The notes under the pieces: model-generated
What the model saw: only the letters and a program-made list of their open reading frames with translations
What the model was told of the DNA's origin: nothing
Databases searched by the model: none
NCBI GenBank assembly: GCA_016932965.1
Contig: JAFGBW010000034.1
Coordinates: 1-7,893, forward strand
Length of the DNA: 7,893 nucleotides
Direction of reading: 5' to 3'
Source of the DNA: Candidatus Auribacterota bacterium
Lineage (GTDB): Bacteria > Auribacterota > JAFGBW01
Program-made: the position numbers and the translations under genes
Shown: positions 499 to 7,893 of the stretch, piece after piece
Layout: each line of letters starts with the position of its first letter
Position numbering within the stretch: the stretch's first letter is position 1

Positions 499-3400
499 AT
501 GCCAAGAAAAATAACATACCTCCTGTTAGTGTGCCTGTTACGCGTATCTTCAGCTGAGTCTGATTCTTCTCAAAAAACGGTTCATTCCTTATTGGCTCCG
601 AAGTCTTTTCCCAACCGGATACAATCTGCCGTGTTATCAACCCACAGTCTTTCTTTCCCGGAATCTCCGGATACAAGGGATTCCAGAAAAGAATACCCTC
701 AGCTGCTGCAAATCCGGAATGGAAATTGTTCTTTCATAGACAGCCCTCAAAAGACCAATTCCTTTATCAATACCTTGTTTACAAATGAGGAACGCTCAGA
801 AGATGGGTTCAATCTGGAATATGTAACAGGGAAAATAAACGGGCTCCTAAGAGTCCTTTCCAGTTATCAGGCTTCCAAAGAAGGGGAAAATAAATATACA
901 ACAGTCAAATCCACTGATGAGGGTTTGACTTTCAATCCGGATGAGCCCAGAAATATATCCTTTGTTTATGACCCGACAGATCCCCTGTTATCCAGAAATA
1001 TATCTGGGCTGGACCTGGTGATGTTCAATCCGTTGAATCTCAAACAATTCCCGCCTCGTTTGAGAATGCTGCTATTCCAGATTTCCCTGGCGAGGTCGCT
1101 CGTGAATTTTCCTGAAACAGATGACCATGAGGAGATGCAATCACGGGTGACTGATTTCGAACTGACTCTGACTTTATTATTGCTGCAGGAAGAGTCCGGG
1201 ATCACTGAGAAGTTGAGTGAATTACATTTCGGGTATGGCGCACCCGAACAAGCCAAAGTACAGGAAGTGAATTCCAGAGCGCAGGCCTCTCTTGGTGTCC
1301 TGGAAGAATTGATCGGCGCACTGGAAACATCAGGAGCCTCAGGTGATTATAAAACTAGACTTTCACAATTGCATGGCCGCTGCAAACAATTCGCTTTTGA
1401 AAAAATCCTTGCCCTGGGAAGACTGCGTTTTTTTGTTCCCATTGCAGACGATAAAGCCCCTATAGTAGGTATGGATTGCCGGGTTCCAGATATTTACATC
1501 CCTGTCAGTGGAGAAAAGTCCCCATTAAAAAGTGAGGCCTTTCTGACAACATTCTTTGGAAGCAGAAAAGATGCCTACCCGCCGGGATATGTTCAGGGGA
1601 ATAACAGGGTGGTCCATTTCTGTGAGGACGTTGTCGCAAAAACTCCTCATACGCCTTACTTTGCTGAACAATATCAAAACGGCTTTTCCGCGCAGGTACT
1701 GACCAATGAATATGCTGAAAATTCCACACTATTGGGCACCACAGTCATGATTCATCCCGTGGTTCTTCTTTCATTTAAAGACGGAATGGCATTACCACCT
1801 ACTTTAAAAATCATCAGAGATGAACACCTCATCGTGGAGGAAAAAGGACACCGGGGAGAATTGGATCATCAATTGAAGGATGCGGTTTCAAGGCTTGAAT
1901 TGAACACAGCGAGCAGGCTTGTTTATGCCTGGGGAAAAACCATGAGAAGGCTTGTCGATAACAATATGTTCCCCGAACAGCCCACGTTTCTGGTTGTCAA
2001 GGGAACCGGGGAAGAAATTGAAGTCAGGATCACGGATCATCATTCTTTTTATGATCTAAGCAAGATGCCTAATAAAGATACAGCCATACAGGAAATGCTG
2101 GATAGAATCATTTCAAGTGTACTGACTATCCCTGTGGAAGCCAACGGTTATCAGGAACATGTCAAAGAGATCTTAAAACGTCTGCTGGAAATGGGATTTT
2201 ATGGGGGTTTCAGGAATATCAGTTATAATTATCCTCTATTGGAACAGGAATCCATTGCACATGTTAGCCGATCTCTTCCTGCCTTCAACGGCGTCATGGC
2301 AGGACAAAAAACTTTATTCAGAATCTCAGACCCTCCGGAAGACCTGCAGGTCGATACGGAGGGGATACTGGCAAATCTTGAATCCAATTTTCCGGAGGAA
2401 AGAGAACGACAAATGCTGTGCAACATGTTCGGTGTCACTTCATTCAGGGAATTGCTGCAGGCTGAGCTTTCACGGGGCATTCAGATTAGATGGAATGTCC
2501 TAGCCGCTCATGACAAAAACAGAAAAAGAGCCGCGACCAGGCTGCCGGACAGTGCGCTTGGAGGGCTTAGATATGATCCGGATATCATGGGGGGAGCAGG
2601 GGTTTCGCCTGTTCATAAATTACTGCTTATGTTAAACCAGGCTATCAAGCAGGAAATGGATACCCAGTATCCGCTGGAAGGCGATGAAGATATGTTTAAA
2701 AGGGATCTGGCTTATCTGATGAACCACGTGAGCAGGCTGGGAATGATCACCCCTGTCCACAGCAGGATACGGTCTCTTTCATCCCTGATAGAAGAATCGC
2801 TCCCAGGCGAATTACATGAAAGTCTGGAAAGATTCTTGATGGGATATTTCCCTTCCAAATTGAATTTCGGCCTTGTCACGTTCCGGACCGTCAACGGCAA
2901 GGTGTTTCCTCATTATCAGTTCACAACCCATATCCCAGCATATGATGCCCTTCACTATCTGTACCCGACTATCATCAGACTGGCAAAAGGTCAAACCTGG
3001 GGCGCACGGGCATCCAGAATCCGCACGATGTTCTTCTCAAACCATTTCGTGTTAAAAAGAGCCAGACACAGCAGAACAGGCTATGAGTCCCAGGAAGTAC
3101 AAGCTGAACTGGGTGAACGCTCCAGCGGAGCGCATTCGACGTTTTTACCTCTGCAGTACGGTTTGCTGACCATGACAGACGGCACAAATACCGAAGAGTA
3201 CTACATAGAAGAGAAGTACCAGGGAGGAGACGCCGGCTATCAGCTTGCCCGGTTGCTGCTAGGCAGCAGAAGAAATGCTGCAGAATCCATGATTCAAAAC
3301 CAGTTTTTCAACGTCCTGGATCACTTTCGGCGAATGAATATCACACCCGTGAATGCAAGCTGGGGAATCGCTGATGACCAAATGGTGAATCTCTTGGATT

Positions 3401-3582
3401 ATGAATCCTTTTCCGAGGGATTTGATCTGAACGAGATAGTCACCGACATATTCCGTCCCTATTTTCCCAAAGAGCATCAGACACAAGAATTAGCCGAAGC
3501 GATTGAATTTTTTATTTCAGTTTTCAACAGGACTGAACGTCTCGACGTTCAAAGACCTGAATCAATGAACAGAGCCAGTTAA
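499..3582 (+). CDS. large exported protein of unknown function with two degenerate kinase-like modules
   Basis: I do not recognise this 1027-residue protein as a named family. The N-terminus (MPRKITYLLLVCLLRVSSA, then ES) is a basic residue pair, a short hydrophobic core and a plausible signal-peptidase I site near residue 19, so it is probably periplasmic or secreted. The ATG at 499 is the first possible start, because an in-frame TAA lies at 487-489. No Shine-Dalgarno site precedes it. By eye there are two related modules. Module A (about 375-520) has VVAK with K381, E404, the hinge-like VEEK (446-449) with QL at 458-459, and ITDHHSF with D513. Module B (about 848-975) has FVLK with K853, E870, IEEK (903-906) with QL at 915-916, and LLDYESF with D967. 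The order Lys, Glu, hinge, helices, Asp resembles aminoglycoside-phosphotransferase-type kinase folds, but neither copy keeps the catalytic-loop Asp and Asn. The rest looks mainly helical and soluble. The kinase-like reading is my inference; the coding call is firm. Confidence 0.9.
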   Translation: MPRKITYLLLVCLLRVSSAESDSSQKTVHSLLAPKSFPNRIQSAVLSTHSLSFPESPDTRDSRKEYPQLLQIRNGNCSFIDSPQKTNSFINTLFTNEERSEDGFNLEYVTGKINGLLRVLSSYQASKEGENKYTTVKSTDEGLTFNPDEPRNISFVYDPTDPLLSRNISGLDLVMFNPLNLKQFPPRLRMLLFQISLARSLVNFPETDDHEEMQSRVTDFELTLTLLLLQEESGITEKLSELHFGYGAPEQAKVQEVNSRAQASLGVLEELIGALETSGASGDYKTRLSQLHGRCKQFAFEKILALGRLRFFVPIADDKAPIVGMDCRVPDIYIPVSGEKSPLKSEAFLTTFFGSRKDAYPPGYVQGNNRVVHFCEDVVAKTPHTPYFAEQYQNGFSAQVLTNEYAENSTLLGTTVMIHPVVLLSFKDGMALPPTLKIIRDEHLIVEEKGHRGELDHQLKDAVSRLELNTASRLVYAWGKTMRRLVDNNMFPEQPTFLVVKGTGEEIEVRITDHHSFYDLSKMPNKDTAIQEMLDRIISSVLTIPVEANGYQEHVKEILKRLLEMGFYGGFRNISYNYPLLEQESIAHVSRSLPAFNGVMAGQKTLFRISDPPEDLQVDTEGILANLESNFPEERERQMLCNMFGVTSFRELLQAELSRGIQIRWNVLAAHDKNRKRAATRLPDSALGGLRYDPDIMGGAGVSPVHKLLLMLNQAIKQEMDTQYPLEGDEDMFKRDLAYLMNHVSRLGMITPVHSRIRSLSSLIEESLPGELHESLERFLMGYFPSKLNFGLVTFRTVNGKVFPHYQFTTHIPAYDALHYLYPTIIRLAKGQTWGARASRIRTMFFSNHFVLKRARHSRTGYESQEVQAELGERSSGAHSTFLPLQYGLLTMTDGTNTEEYYIEEKYQGGDAGYQLARLLLGSRRNAAESMIQNQFFNVLDHFRRMNITPVNASWGIADDQMVNLLDYESFSEGFDLNEIVTDIFRPYFPKEHQTQELAEAIEFFISVFNRTERLDVQRPESMNRAS

Positions 3583-3813: not shown

Positions 3814-5703
3814 ATGACCTCATTGTCTTATTTTGACCAGTTGAAAGAAATCGTCGTCAGGGAACGCGACGCGGAAAAAGATTTGTCCTATGAGCAGTTA
3901 AAGAAATTGTCTCTTCCCGAGAGGGTTCTTCGCGGCCATACCTTGAAGAAATGCCATCTGCTTGAGCGACAGACCGAGGGGATTGAAACACTCGTTATTT
4001 TTGAACACCCTCCGGTTCCCGAAGGAGAATCGATCCCGTTTAAGGAAGGAGACTGGATTGCGCTGGAGGGGAACCACAGCGCTTCCCTATCGCCATTATT
4101 AACCGGCACGGTGGTCCGCCTGGATGAAGATCTGATCTGGATCCGCTTTTCCGAAACGTTTCCCGAAGAAATCAAAGACGGGCTCTGGCATCTCAATAAA
4201 GTGATCAATGAATCCACCTGGCAGAAAATCGAACAGGGAATTCGTTTCATGGAGGAAACCAGGGATCCGGAACAAACTCAGTTGAGAGAGGTCCTTCTGG
4301 GAAAAAAGGAAAGGACCCGCATGGGATGGATGCTAAAAAAATTCTATCACCCAAAACTCAACGACCTTCAGAAGCAAATCACGGAAGAATGCCTGAAAGA
4401 AAAGGAGATCGGCCTTATCTGGGGGCCGCCCGGCACGGGAAAAACAACGGTCCTGGTTGAAATAGCCATGCAGTCCGTCAGATGCGGACAAAAAGTCATG
4501 GTCTCCGCGCCGTCAAACATGGCCCTGGATACCTTATTGGAAAAACTGCTGGAAGCAGGATTGAAATGCGTGCGTGTGGGAGTGAATGAAAAAACTCTCC
4601 CCTCTCTCAAAAAGACGACATTGCCTGAAATCTTAAAAGACCATCCCATGATGGAAGTGATCAAAAACATCCGCAAGGAAATCTCCAGCCTTCTTCATTT
4701 CATAAAAAGACGAAAAAACCGGGAATATATCCCCCATGCCGAATACCGGCAGCTGCAGAAAGAACTGAGCGCTCTTTATCAGGAGATCCGGCAGACGGAA
4801 CGGGCAAGCGCCCGTGATGTCCTTGAGTCCGCGGAAATCATCGCCTGCACTCACGCGGGGTTTCCCTGGTTTTTGAAAAAACAGCGGATCTTTGACCTGC
4901 TCATCATGGATGAGGCTTCCCAGGCCATTCAACCCATCTCGTGGGTCCCTCTGTGCATGACGAAAAAGGTCATTTTTGCGGGGGACCCCTGTCAATTGCC
5001 TCCCACTTACTTAAGCGATGCCGTCTCAGAAATGGATATGGAGCCGACGCTTTTTGAAATGCTCCTTAAACGATATGGAAAAGCCAATCTGCTGCAAACA
5101 CAGTACCGGATGAACGTAGCCATCCAGGCATGGCCGTCTTTGTATTTCTATGACAACTCCCTCATGGCTGCGCCGGAAAACGCCGGGCATTCGATCAAAG
5201 ACCTATCTCTGACCAGGGAGACCGATCTCAAGGATGTGCCGGTGGTTTTCATCGATACGGCCGGAACCGGTTTCGAAGAAGAATGGAACAGCGATTCAGA
5301 CAGTTTTTTTAATCCCGGCGAAGCTGCAGTGACACAAAAACTTCACGCCCATTATCTTTTTTCAGGGATAAGGGAGGATCAGATCGGGATCATCACTCCA
5401 TACCGCGCCCAGGTGAACCACCTGAAAAAAACCATCCTGACCGCAACGGATATCAATACCGTCGACAGCTTTCAGGGACGCGAGAAAGAAATCATTTTTA
5501 TTTCCATGGTCCGCTCCAACTCGCACGGGGACCTGGGGTTTTTAAAAGACTACCGGAGAATGAACGTGGCCTGGACACGGGCGAAAAGACAATTGATTGT
5601 GATCGGGGATTCCTCCACCCTCTCCAGGGCCTCTTTTTATCATGACTGGATCTCGTCCATAGAAAACACCTCTTCCTGGCGTTCTGCCTGGGAGTGGATG
5701 TAA
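3814..5703 (+). CDS. UPF1/IGHMBP2-type superfamily 1 DNA/RNA helicase
   Basis: This 629-residue protein carries all hallmark SF1 motifs: Walker A GPPGTGKTT (204-212, K210), motif Ia APSNMALDTL just downstream, DEAS (366-369), GDPCQLPPT (390-398), QYRMN (430-434), VDSFQGREKE (550-559) and MNVAWTRAK (583-591). A beta-rich stretch at about 74-120 (FKEGDWIAL, then GTVVRL and LIWIRF) fits the 1B barrel of the UPF1-like group. The charged helical insert between motifs Ia and II (about 265-345) fits domain 1C, and 500-620 forms the second RecA domain. Family members hydrolyse ATP to move 5' to 3' on single-stranded nucleic acid, and the eukaryotic relatives are IGHMBP2 and UPF1. Bacterial copies are usually of this length and their role is poorly defined. 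There is no nuclease domain, R3H domain or signal peptide. The gene stands alone. The start lacks a Shine-Dalgarno site but fits the expected N-terminus. Confidence 0.93.
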   Translation: MTSLSYFDQLKEIVVRERDAEKDLSYEQLKKLSLPERVLRGHTLKKCHLLERQTEGIETLVIFEHPPVPEGESIPFKEGDWIALEGNHSASLSPLLTGTVVRLDEDLIWIRFSETFPEEIKDGLWHLNKVINESTWQKIEQGIRFMEETRDPEQTQLREVLLGKKERTRMGWMLKKFYHPKLNDLQKQITEECLKEKEIGLIWGPPGTGKTTVLVEIAMQSVRCGQKVMVSAPSNMALDTLLEKLLEAGLKCVRVGVNEKTLPSLKKTTLPEILKDHPMMEVIKNIRKEISSLLHFIKRRKNREYIPHAEYRQLQKELSALYQEIRQTERASARDVLESAEIIACTHAGFPWFLKKQRIFDLLIMDEASQAIQPISWVPLCMTKKVIFAGDPCQLPPTYLSDAVSEMDMEPTLFEMLLKRYGKANLLQTQYRMNVAIQAWPSLYFYDNSLMAAPENAGHSIKDLSLTRETDLKDVPVVFIDTAGTGFEEEWNSDSDSFFNPGEAAVTQKLHAHYLFSGIREDQIGIITPYRAQVNHLKKTILTATDINTVDSFQGREKEIIFISMVRSNSHGDLGFLKDYRRMNVAWTRAKRQLIVIGDSSTLSRASFYHDWISSIENTSSWRSAWEWM

Positions 5704-6034: not shown

Positions 6035-6814
6035 ATGATGAACAAAACAGGAATTTTTATCTGCCTTTTTTGCTGCGTTTCAATTCTTGCGTTGTCACAG
6101 GATTCTTCTTCCCAGATCATCTCCGTCAAGATGCAGGCTATTGAAGAGGAACTCAAACTGGATGAAGTCAAGATCAAACCTGTCGGATCCAGCGATGATC
6201 TGATGCTGGAAGGGACCGTCTCAAGCGAAGCCGTGTCCAATCGGGCAAAAGAAGTCACCAATCTGTATTTTTCAAATGTTTTCAATCTGCTCTCTGTTGA
6301 AAAACCGCAGGTCCGTTTTCAATTCAAGGTGATCAAATACCTCAAACTCAAGAATACGCCTTCAGCATCGCGAAGCACGGAAGTGCTGAAAGAAGGTATG
6401 GATATGGAAAAACCATGGTATTTCCTGCTTTTTGACAACATGGAGATGGAAAGCCTCGTGAACGAGGTCAAAAATTTATTTTCAGGAGAAGTCCTGGAAT
6501 GCCAGAAACCTGTAAAGTCAGCCTCGAATCAGATAAGAATCCCTTTTACCGACAACGGAAAAAATTATGAAGCCTTTCTCACATCGACTTATCTGGACAA
6601 CGGTTTTTTCAATCATTCACTGAAAATTGAGATGACCGGCCCGGATACGGAGGGAAAAGTCATCTTCAACATGCCTCTTTATTCAAAAAGCGGTGAATGG
6701 ATCGTGGTGACGGGATTTTCCCTTGCCGAAGAACCCGTCAATGTTCCCGAAGAATACCTAACTTTATTTGTTTTTCAGCCGACACTTCAAAAGAGAAACA
6801 ATCTGGAGAGTTAA
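6035..6814 (+). CDS. small exported BON/secretin-like protein, CpaC-related
   Basis: This 259-residue protein starts with a typical signal peptide (MMNKTGIFICLFCCVSILAL; likely cleavage after ALS at residue 21). Residues about 28-88 look like a BON-type domain, with V-K-I-K-P at 45-49, LEGTV at 58-62 and alternating Ala positions. NLLSVEKPQVRFQFKVIKYL follows at 84-103. In CpaC-type secretins of Tad pili the BON domain is likewise followed by a N-x-L-x-V...QV-x-x-x-V-x-I/V-x-E segment. The C-terminal half (about 130-250) has spaced beta strands and ends in SGEWIVVTGFSL (about 221-232), like the dG-x-x-x-v-i-G-l end of a secretin domain. Genuine CpaC proteins are much longer, around 450 residues or more, so this may be a reduced relative, a periplasmic adaptor or a non-pore homologue. 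Initiation may instead be at the second ATG (6038). Family assignment is inference; coding and export are well supported. Confidence 0.85.
   Translation: MMNKTGIFICLFCCVSILALSQDSSSQIISVKMQAIEEELKLDEVKIKPVGSSDDLMLEGTVSSEAVSNRAKEVTNLYFSNVFNLLSVEKPQVRFQFKVIKYLKLKNTPSASRSTEVLKEGMDMEKPWYFLLFDNMEMESLVNEVKNLFSGEVLECQKPVKSASNQIRIPFTDNGKNYEAFLTSTYLDNGFFNHSLKIEMTGPDTEGKVIFNMPLYSKSGEWIVVTGFSLAEEPVNVPEEYLTLFVFQPTLQKRNNLES
6805..6808 (+). promoter_or_regulatory. Shine-Dalgarno site of the dual-FHA gene
   Basis: GGAG lies 6 bases before the ATG at 6815, inside the last codons of the upstream gene. The upstream stop TAA (6812-6814) directly touches this ATG, so the two genes are very probably translationally coupled. 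The site fixes the start of the second gene. Confidence 0.7.
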
Positions 6815-7893
6815 ATGATCAAAACCCTCACAGAAACTTCCGATGTGCTCTTTTCAATCATGATCACCTCCTCGAACGATGAGCCCAAACAGGTGCCGCT
6901 CGAATACCCCGAACTGCTGATCGGCAAGTCAAAAGAAGCCGATGTGATGGTGAATGACACTCAAGTAGGAGATCTGCAAATAAAAATCATCCGGGAAGGG
7001 GAACGGTTTCAGGTTTGCGATTTGAACTCCGGATTTCCGACCCGTTTGAACAATCAAATACTGGAATCCCCTTTTCCGCTGGTTGCCGGAGATATCATCA
7101 CCATGGGTAAAACACAAATCCACTTCATGGAACGTTCCGCTTCCGAAGAAATTCCCAAAGAAAAGCCGAAGGAGGCCGATGCCGGCAAAACCCAGTTCAT
7201 GACGGTTTTCAAAGTGGAAGAAGAAAAAGCCAAAGGCAGGCTGGTTGGGGTATCCGGTCAGGTCAAAGGCCGCGTTTTCCCGATCAATAAAGACAAAATC
7301 AGTATCGGCAGGGACCCTTCGAATGATATCTGCATTGATCAGGACGGCCTCTCGCGGGCTCACGCGATCCTGGAAATCGGCGAAAAAACCATCACGGTTT
7401 TGGATTTCAACAGCACGAACGGCACGTTCATCAACGGGAAAAAAATCGTTTCCGAAGTCATCAAGCCGGGAACCGTGGTCCAATTCGCCAATGCCGCTCT
7501 GCGCTATGAGCTTTTTGACAGTTCCGATGACAAGGGCAAAAAATCCTTTTTCCGTCATTTTGTCCAATGGACAGTCACGTTGATGCTGGTGACATTCATC
7601 ACGGGCGGGGGCATTTATCTTTTCAATTATTACTCCACGGAAAAACAAAAGAGGATTCTGGAACAGAAGCAAAAAGAGCTGGAGAATCTGGCGGAAAAGG
7701 TCAAAGAGGAATCCCCGGAAAAGAAACTGGAAATCGCGGAAAAAGCCTGTTCCCTGGAACAATACGATGAGGCCATGAAAATCGTTGACGGAGTTTTATC
7801 GGACAGTCCCTCTCATGCGGGCGCTCTTTTGCTGAAGGGCAAAATCATGAAGGCAAAAAAATATGCTGAAGTGAATGAACTTTATCAAAAAGG
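6815..7893 (+). CDS. dual-FHA, single-pass membrane, TPR-like protein (3' end outside window)
   Basis: The frame has 359 complete codons and is open at the window edge. FHA domain 1 (about 28-104) keeps the fold pattern LIGKSKEADVMVND and GDIITMGKTQIHF. However, it has GK for GR (37-38), VGDLQ where S-R-x-x-H is expected, and SGFPTRLNN for S-x-NGTFVN, so it probably does not bind phosphothreonine. FHA domain 2 (about 143-234) is canonical: IGRDPSND (164-171), SRAH (180-183) and NSTNGTFING (199-208). A hydrophobic segment at 249-270 (FVQWTVTLMLVTFITGGGIYLF) is a likely membrane span. Next come a charged coiled coil (about 274-300) and TPR-like helices (303 onward, with EQYDEAMKIVDGVLSDSPSHAGALL). 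The N-terminal FHA half should face the cytoplasm and the TPR half the periplasm, where the partner encoded upstream is exported. FHA domains bind phosphothreonine partners; FHA proteins occur near pilus and secretion genes. Thr126, in the linker AGKTQFMT, is a conceivable phosphorylated ligand, but this is speculation. Confidence 0.93.
   Translation, partial: MIKTLTETSDVLFSIMITSSNDEPKQVPLEYPELLIGKSKEADVMVNDTQVGDLQIKIIREGERFQVCDLNSGFPTRLNNQILESPFPLVAGDIITMGKTQIHFMERSASEEIPKEKPKEADAGKTQFMTVFKVEEEKAKGRLVGVSGQVKGRVFPINKDKISIGRDPSNDICIDQDGLSRAHAILEIGEKTITVLDFNSTNGTFINGKKIVSEVIKPGTVVQFANAALRYELFDSSDDKGKKSFFRHFVQWTVTLMLVTFITGGGIYLFNYYSTEKQKRILEQKQKELENLAEKVKEESPEKKLEIAEKACSLEQYDEAMKIVDGVLSDSPSHAGALLLKGKIMKAKKYAEVNELYQK

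Follow-up and report, generated by a model that had tools for sequence, protein, structure and literature searches.

The locus studied here encodes P0001, a large protein in which the initial annotation had seen a signal peptide and two copies of a protein-kinase-like module. It raises the question of whether the duplication and the fold are genuine, and what such a protein would do once exported. The analysis below describes P0001 as a predicted exported orphan with an internal duplication, for which the odds of a kinase-like fold are about even and catalysis of the usual type is unlikely.

P0001 is a predicted exported orphan

The window, meaning the whole stretch of DNA that was analysed, is one entire contig (C63) of 7893 bases from a host genome of 300 contigs and 3.14 Mb. 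Relatives of a neighbouring gene (6035-6811), present in the same taxonomic order and in the same genome, indicate that the contig belongs to this host. P0001 is a plus-strand open reading frame with two candidate export signals at its N-terminus:

499..3582, plus strand: P0001, predicted exported orphan ORF of 1027 aa, with no family match and no relative found in other genomes
499..555, plus strand: putative signal peptide, aa 1-19 (MPRK-ITYLLLVCLL-RVSSA), read directly from the sequence
592..606, plus strand: LAPKS, aa 32-36, an LAPx(S/T) motif past the signal peptide, common to at least 30 other predicted exported proteins of the genome

Cleavage by a type I signal peptidase after A19 is likely; by eye, no lipobox is present in the signal peptide, the LLVC segment having no small residue at -1. 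From the signal peptide, likewise read by eye, together with the LAPKS tag, we infer that P0001 is exported.

No meaningful family match for P0001 was found in Pfam, NCBIfam, PADLOC or PDB sequences, and PHROGs returned only insignificant matches (best E 0.088). Genome searches with the whole protein, its C-terminal part and a profile of its two modules (A and B, described below) as queries found no relative in 97 other genomes, comprising 43 of its own phylum and 54 others. Nothing above chance was recovered from IMG/VR, from GTDB genome contigs scanned with degenerate patterns, or from phages and plasmids; since pattern scans detect close relatives only, distant ones may exist. A diverged orthologue was not located by synteny either. 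Seven other genomes of the phylum, among them the two of the same order, contain no strong match to the neighbouring helicase gene, which therefore offered no anchor.

That helicase, encoded at 3814-5703, belongs to the IGHMBP2 family (TIGR00376, 432 bits). Beyond it lie the gene of an exported 259-aa protein (6035-6811), whose same-order relatives adjoin FHA and CpaF-like ATPase genes of Tad-type systems, and then that of a membrane protein with two FHA domains (both within 6035-7891). Divergent from P0001, on the minus strand at 3-242, is the start of a gene with an N-terminus like that of alpha-amylase-type proteins, cut by the contig end.

P0001 contains two diverged copies of one module

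All landmarks named in the initial annotation lie where it had placed them: in module A, VVAK ending in K381, E404, VEEK (446-449), QL (458-459) and ITDHHSF with D513; in module B, FVLK ending in K853, E870, IEEK (903-906), QL (915-916) and LLDYESF with D967. The distances of 66 and 63 residues from EEK to the Asp in A and B were also reproduced. Its spacing of about 330 residues between the modules holds for the gap between them (340 residues from D513 to K853); from Lys to Lys the distance is 472. The features of the two modules are as follows:

1582..2067, plus strand: module A core, aa 362-523 (alignment-supported part 389-523), from the A/B alignment
1639..1641, plus strand: K381 of module A, beta3-Lys-like, aligned with K853
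1708..1710, plus strand: E404 of module A, alphaC-Glu-like, aligned with E870
2035..2037, plus strand: D513 (ITDHHSF) of module A, DFG-Asp-like, from the A/B alignment
2986..3438, plus strand: module B core, aa 830-980 (alignment-supported part 855-980), from the A/B alignment
3055..3057, plus strand: K853 of module B, beta3-Lys-like, on the kinase beta3 column in the profile alignment
3106..3108, plus strand: E870 of module B, alphaC-Glu-like, from the A/B alignment
3397..3399, plus strand: D967 (LLDYESF) of module B, DFG-Asp-like, on the kinase DFG Asp with seven of nine templates in profile alignment A2

Smith-Waterman local alignment (BLOSUM62) of aa 389-523 with aa 855-980 gave a score of 57, whereas 1000 shuffles averaged 28 and never exceeded 48. 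Aligning the first half of P0001 with the second half yielded a score of 54 (equalled by 5 of 500 shuffles), and the best internal alignment of the whole protein over six split points was equalled by 2 of 300 shuffles (p ~0.007). Identity between the modules is about 21-25%. The statistically supported repeat begins just past K381 and K853. The segments carrying these lysines pair only in the longer MAFFT alignment, which extends upstream across both (GYVQGNNRVVHFCEDVVAK with GARASRIRTMFFSNHFVLK) and matches K381 with K853 and E404 with E870. At the sequence level, these comparisons confirm that modules A and B are two diverged copies of one module that arose by internal duplication. The repeat beats shuffled sequences and no relatives were detected, in agreement with the original proposal of an undescribed family whose single chain carries a signal peptide and two modules related to each other.

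Profile alignments tentatively place the modules in register with protein kinases

Both copies carry a Lys, a Glu and a DFG-type Asp in kinase order (K381/E404/D513 and K853/E870/D967). Compared with the kinase superfamily (PF00069, APH PF01636 and Kdo/WaaP PF06293), the modules match the order and approximate spacing of the beta3 Lys, the alphaC Glu, the hinge, two helices and the DFG Asp, and the two-module profile A2 aligns with kinases in register, albeit at low scores and less well with other module boundaries. Unlike members of the superfamily, P0001 has no family match, no HRD Asp or following Asn and a shorter catalytic loop, carries two copies per chain and is predicted to be exported. 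The protein-kinase-like fold proposed initially is plausible rather than established: the profile alignment is in register and unusually long, but no family match accompanies it and single modules perform at chance.

When aligned by hhalign with 58 kinases of the phylum, A2 scored 17.8 over 147 columns, with a probability of 0.8%. Among 150 gap-preserving column shuffles of A2, the score was equalled by three and the length by none. This alignment places the Lys of the modules at the beta3 column and pairs their Asp with that of DFG. Across nine templates (the full 58-kinase set and eight random subsets of it), the Asp of A2 coincided with that of DFG in seven, and the alignment spanned at least 80 columns in six. 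Three of 36 real non-kinase pair alignments used as controls also reached Asp placement in at least seven of nine; none of the 36 had more than one long alignment, and the best placement among 60 shuffles was three of nine. The mean A2 score over the nine templates, 15.1, was equalled by 3 of the 36 non-kinase controls and 2 of the 60 shuffles. Placement depends on the module boundaries, falling to four of nine templates for A1 and one of nine for A4, and true kinases reach scores of 190-340 with these templates, more than ten times the modules. An earlier round of controls had used six templates picked for good alignment with the modules, a choice favouring the claim; we rely on its repeat with all nine.

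Other approaches yielded little signal. No kinase match for P0001 appeared in Pfam, NCBIfam or PDB sequences, kinase HMMs scored single modules no higher than shuffled sequences, and pairwise similarity of the modules to four exported kinases of the same genome was at chance level. AlphaFold2 models built from two-row alignments of the modules reached pLDDT values of 39.5 and 36.0, too poor to interpret, and Foldseek with both low-confidence models gave no kinase fold among the matches listed. Those matches (kinesins, TRPML, chaperonins and others) were dismissed as noise. In the low-confidence models, module B shows the order beta-beta, short helix, beta, beta, helix, helix, and module A a long helix followed by two strands that end close to the Asp, and helices; this order of elements plausibly counts toward a kinase-like fold.

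Taken together, these data put a kinase fold for the two modules marginally above an even chance. The main competing explanation is that the modules, homologous to each other, adopt some other alpha/beta fold in which the Lys-Glu-Asp order is coincidental, P0001 being an exported binding or structural protein. It has a serious claim, though one we would put below an even chance. It accords with the silence of every profile library, the chance-level scores of single modules against kinase HMMs, the boundary dependence of a profile signal that a few non-kinase controls equal, the unusable AlphaFold2 models and the fact that most members of the exported cohort described below are unrecognised proteins as well. 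What it does not predict is the long in-register profile alignment, reached by 0 of 36 controls, the kinase-like order of the predicted elements, or the several kinase domains within the cohort.

Both modules lack the catalytic Asp and Asn

The segments that line up with the kinase catalytic loop (HRDxKPxN in kinases) follow the second long helix and precede the DFG-type Asp:

1960..1998, plus strand: catalytic-loop equivalent of module A, aa 488-500 (NNMFPEQPTFLVV), aligned to kinases and module B
3337..3369, plus strand: catalytic-loop equivalent of module B, aa 947-957 (NITPVNASWGI), from the profile alignment to kinases

These segments line up with each other through a common Pro (P492 and P950) followed by T/S and F/W, and are shorter than kinase loops. 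Neither copy has the HRD Asp or the Asn after it at the aligned positions, an absence on which the initial annotation did not remark. If the fold is that of a kinase, the modules would be pseudokinase-like because both residues are missing, and catalysis of the usual type has very probably been lost.

An atypical but active kinase or transferase (an AMPylase, a glutamylase or a FAM20/CotH-like enzyme) could draw its base from another position, with both domains active or one active and the other inactive. Atypical kinases without a canonical HRD motif exist, FAM20 and SelO among them, the genome exports other kinases, and the Lys, Glu and DFG-type Asp are retained in both copies. Such activity is nevertheless quite improbable: no acidic residue of NNMFPEQPTFLVV is matched by one at the same position of NITPVNASWGI, no Asn occupies the metal-binding site, and the copies differ in the loop. 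Less probable still, to the point of being hard to sustain, is the view that P0001 is a single non-repetitive orphan whose A/B similarity reflects chance and selection by eye, which would fit the low identity and the modest whole-protein p value but not an A/B score reached by 0 of 1000 shuffles over one collinear alignment of about 135 residues, longer still in MAFFT.

The host genome encodes predicted exported kinases that share an N-terminal motif with P0001

A search for APH-type kinases gave 34 matches in the host genome. Among the genes examined, four encode kinase-like proteins with a signal peptide, each of which carries LAPMS, LAPQS or LAPKS at about residues 27-40:

L082:1806-3866, minus strand: exported kinase (contig C196), 687 aa, Pkinase match
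L083:1979-3607, minus strand: exported kinase (contig C182), 543 aa, Pkinase match
L084:2835-5684, minus strand: exported kinase (contig C19), 950 aa, Pkinase match
L096:860-1930, minus strand: exported kinase (contig C259), 357 aa, Pkinase match

Their Pkinase E values are 2.5e-20, 1.1e-19, 6.2e-16 and 0.0041. Like P0001, these are large proteins of similar layout, with a signal peptide and LAPxS within about 25 residues; unlike P0001, they match Pkinase and have catalytic loops (HRDLKPGN, FTDLKPHN, HGDPKPAN and HWDITSSN).

The motif extends well beyond kinases. At least 31 predicted exported ORFs, P0001 included, carry LAPx(S/T) at residue 20-64 past a signal peptide, mostly as LAPQS or LAPKS; the count comes from a DNA-pattern search and inspection of sites in selected stretches and is therefore a lower bound. 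Q and K predominate at position x, but the DNA pattern favoured both. Signal peptides in this cohort were recognised as a hydrophobic stretch after the start codon, without a trained predictor. With the motif permuted to PAL, 0 of 30 sites fell at exported N-termini, compared with 11 of the first 30 LAP sites, and no convincing case of LAPx(S/T) at an exported N-terminus occurred among 30 sites sampled across eight further genomes of the phylum. The papers listed by a literature search do not mention the motif.

By Pfam, several of whose matches are weak, the cohort includes the four kinases, a methyltransferase, an SMC/ABC-type ATPase, a metallo-beta-lactamase, an alpha-amylase, a GH116 glycosidase, a radical-SAM protein, an ABC/AAA-like protein and a TPR protein; the remainder are unrecognised. 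Four of the non-kinase members, each assigned by Pfam and carrying the exported LAPx(S/T) layout, resemble enzymes that ordinarily reside in the cytosol:

L165:2-5260, minus strand: SMC/ABC-type ATPase, 1753 aa, open end
L167:3607-4710, minus strand: radical SAM protein
L167:1313-3583, minus strand: ABC/AAA-like NTPase
L128:1426-2205, plus strand: methyltransferase

Genes of this kind are frequently paired at a locus (L167, L127, L133 and L143), suggesting small clusters. Third-position GC is lower in the cohort than in 185 other ORFs of the examined stretches (0.434 versus 0.481, p = 2e-4), a difference that foreign origin or relaxed codon use could explain.

Discussion

We propose a working model in which P0001, exported by means of its signal peptide and tag as these are read from the sequence, would bear two diverged kinase-like pseudokinase modules that bind and regulate a partner; as a whole this picture is tentative and falls a little short of even odds. 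Each module would have retained the beta3-type Lys, the alphaC-type Glu and the DFG-type Asp and lost the HRD Asp and the Asn. Nucleotide binding would be weak or nil, and the modules would act as binding domains rather than enzymes, regulating a partner. The role of pseudokinase partner or regulator is the simplest one because four kinase-domain proteins with intact catalytic-loop motifs are exported from the same genome. These four, with their equal N-terminal layout of signal peptide and LAPxS, would be the likeliest partners. Granted the fold, a regulatory partnership with them, suggested by genomic company, is a reasonable candidate that we hold with rather less than even confidence.

Pairs of secreted kinases and pseudokinases are known in Toxoplasma, as ROP18 and ROP5 (PMC3393671, PMC3493473), and as FAM20C and FAM20A (PMC4421857, PMC7948968). 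The analogy is functional, in that exported kinases occur with an exported relative lacking catalytic residues; it implies no homology, and the partnership of P0001 is suggested by the company it keeps in the genome. By this analogy, the role of P0001 might resemble that of ROP5 for ROP18 (PMC3493473) or of FAM20A for FAM20C (PMC4421857). In bacteria, remote-homology detection revealed divergent (pseudo)kinase families in the Legionella pan-kinome (PMC9758233). It, too, includes kinase-like families of exported proteins recognised by sensitive methods only, in a different organism.

Protein families that depend on ATP or S-adenosylmethionine are unexpected outside the cytoplasm. Because the cohort contains such families, we raise the possibility of a second cell as the destination, not as our main claim. 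Signal peptide and LAPx(S/T) would then form a two-part tag exporting a lineage-specific set of proteins, perhaps into another cell, in which P0001 would serve as a pseudokinase regulator; we regard this as speculative and unlikely to hold. It is on the same low footing that the tagged set would consist of kinases, twin pseudokinases like P0001, and methyltransferase-, radical-SAM- and SMC/ABC-like proteins. On this two-part reading, the layout would be comparable to the PEXEL and RXLR tags of eukaryotic parasites.

Should the fold prove to be that of a kinase, P0001 would represent a hitherto undescribed family of exported proteins in which one chain bears two pseudokinase-like modules. It would also point to extracytoplasmic signalling by kinases and pseudokinases in a bacterium whose genome encodes exported kinases with catalytic loops as well. 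The wider point is the LAPx(S/T) tag itself, found on at least 31 mostly unrelated predicted exported proteins. Several of these resemble enzymes that ordinarily rely on ATP or S-adenosylmethionine from the cytosol, and this prompts the question of their site of action and of what recognises the tag.
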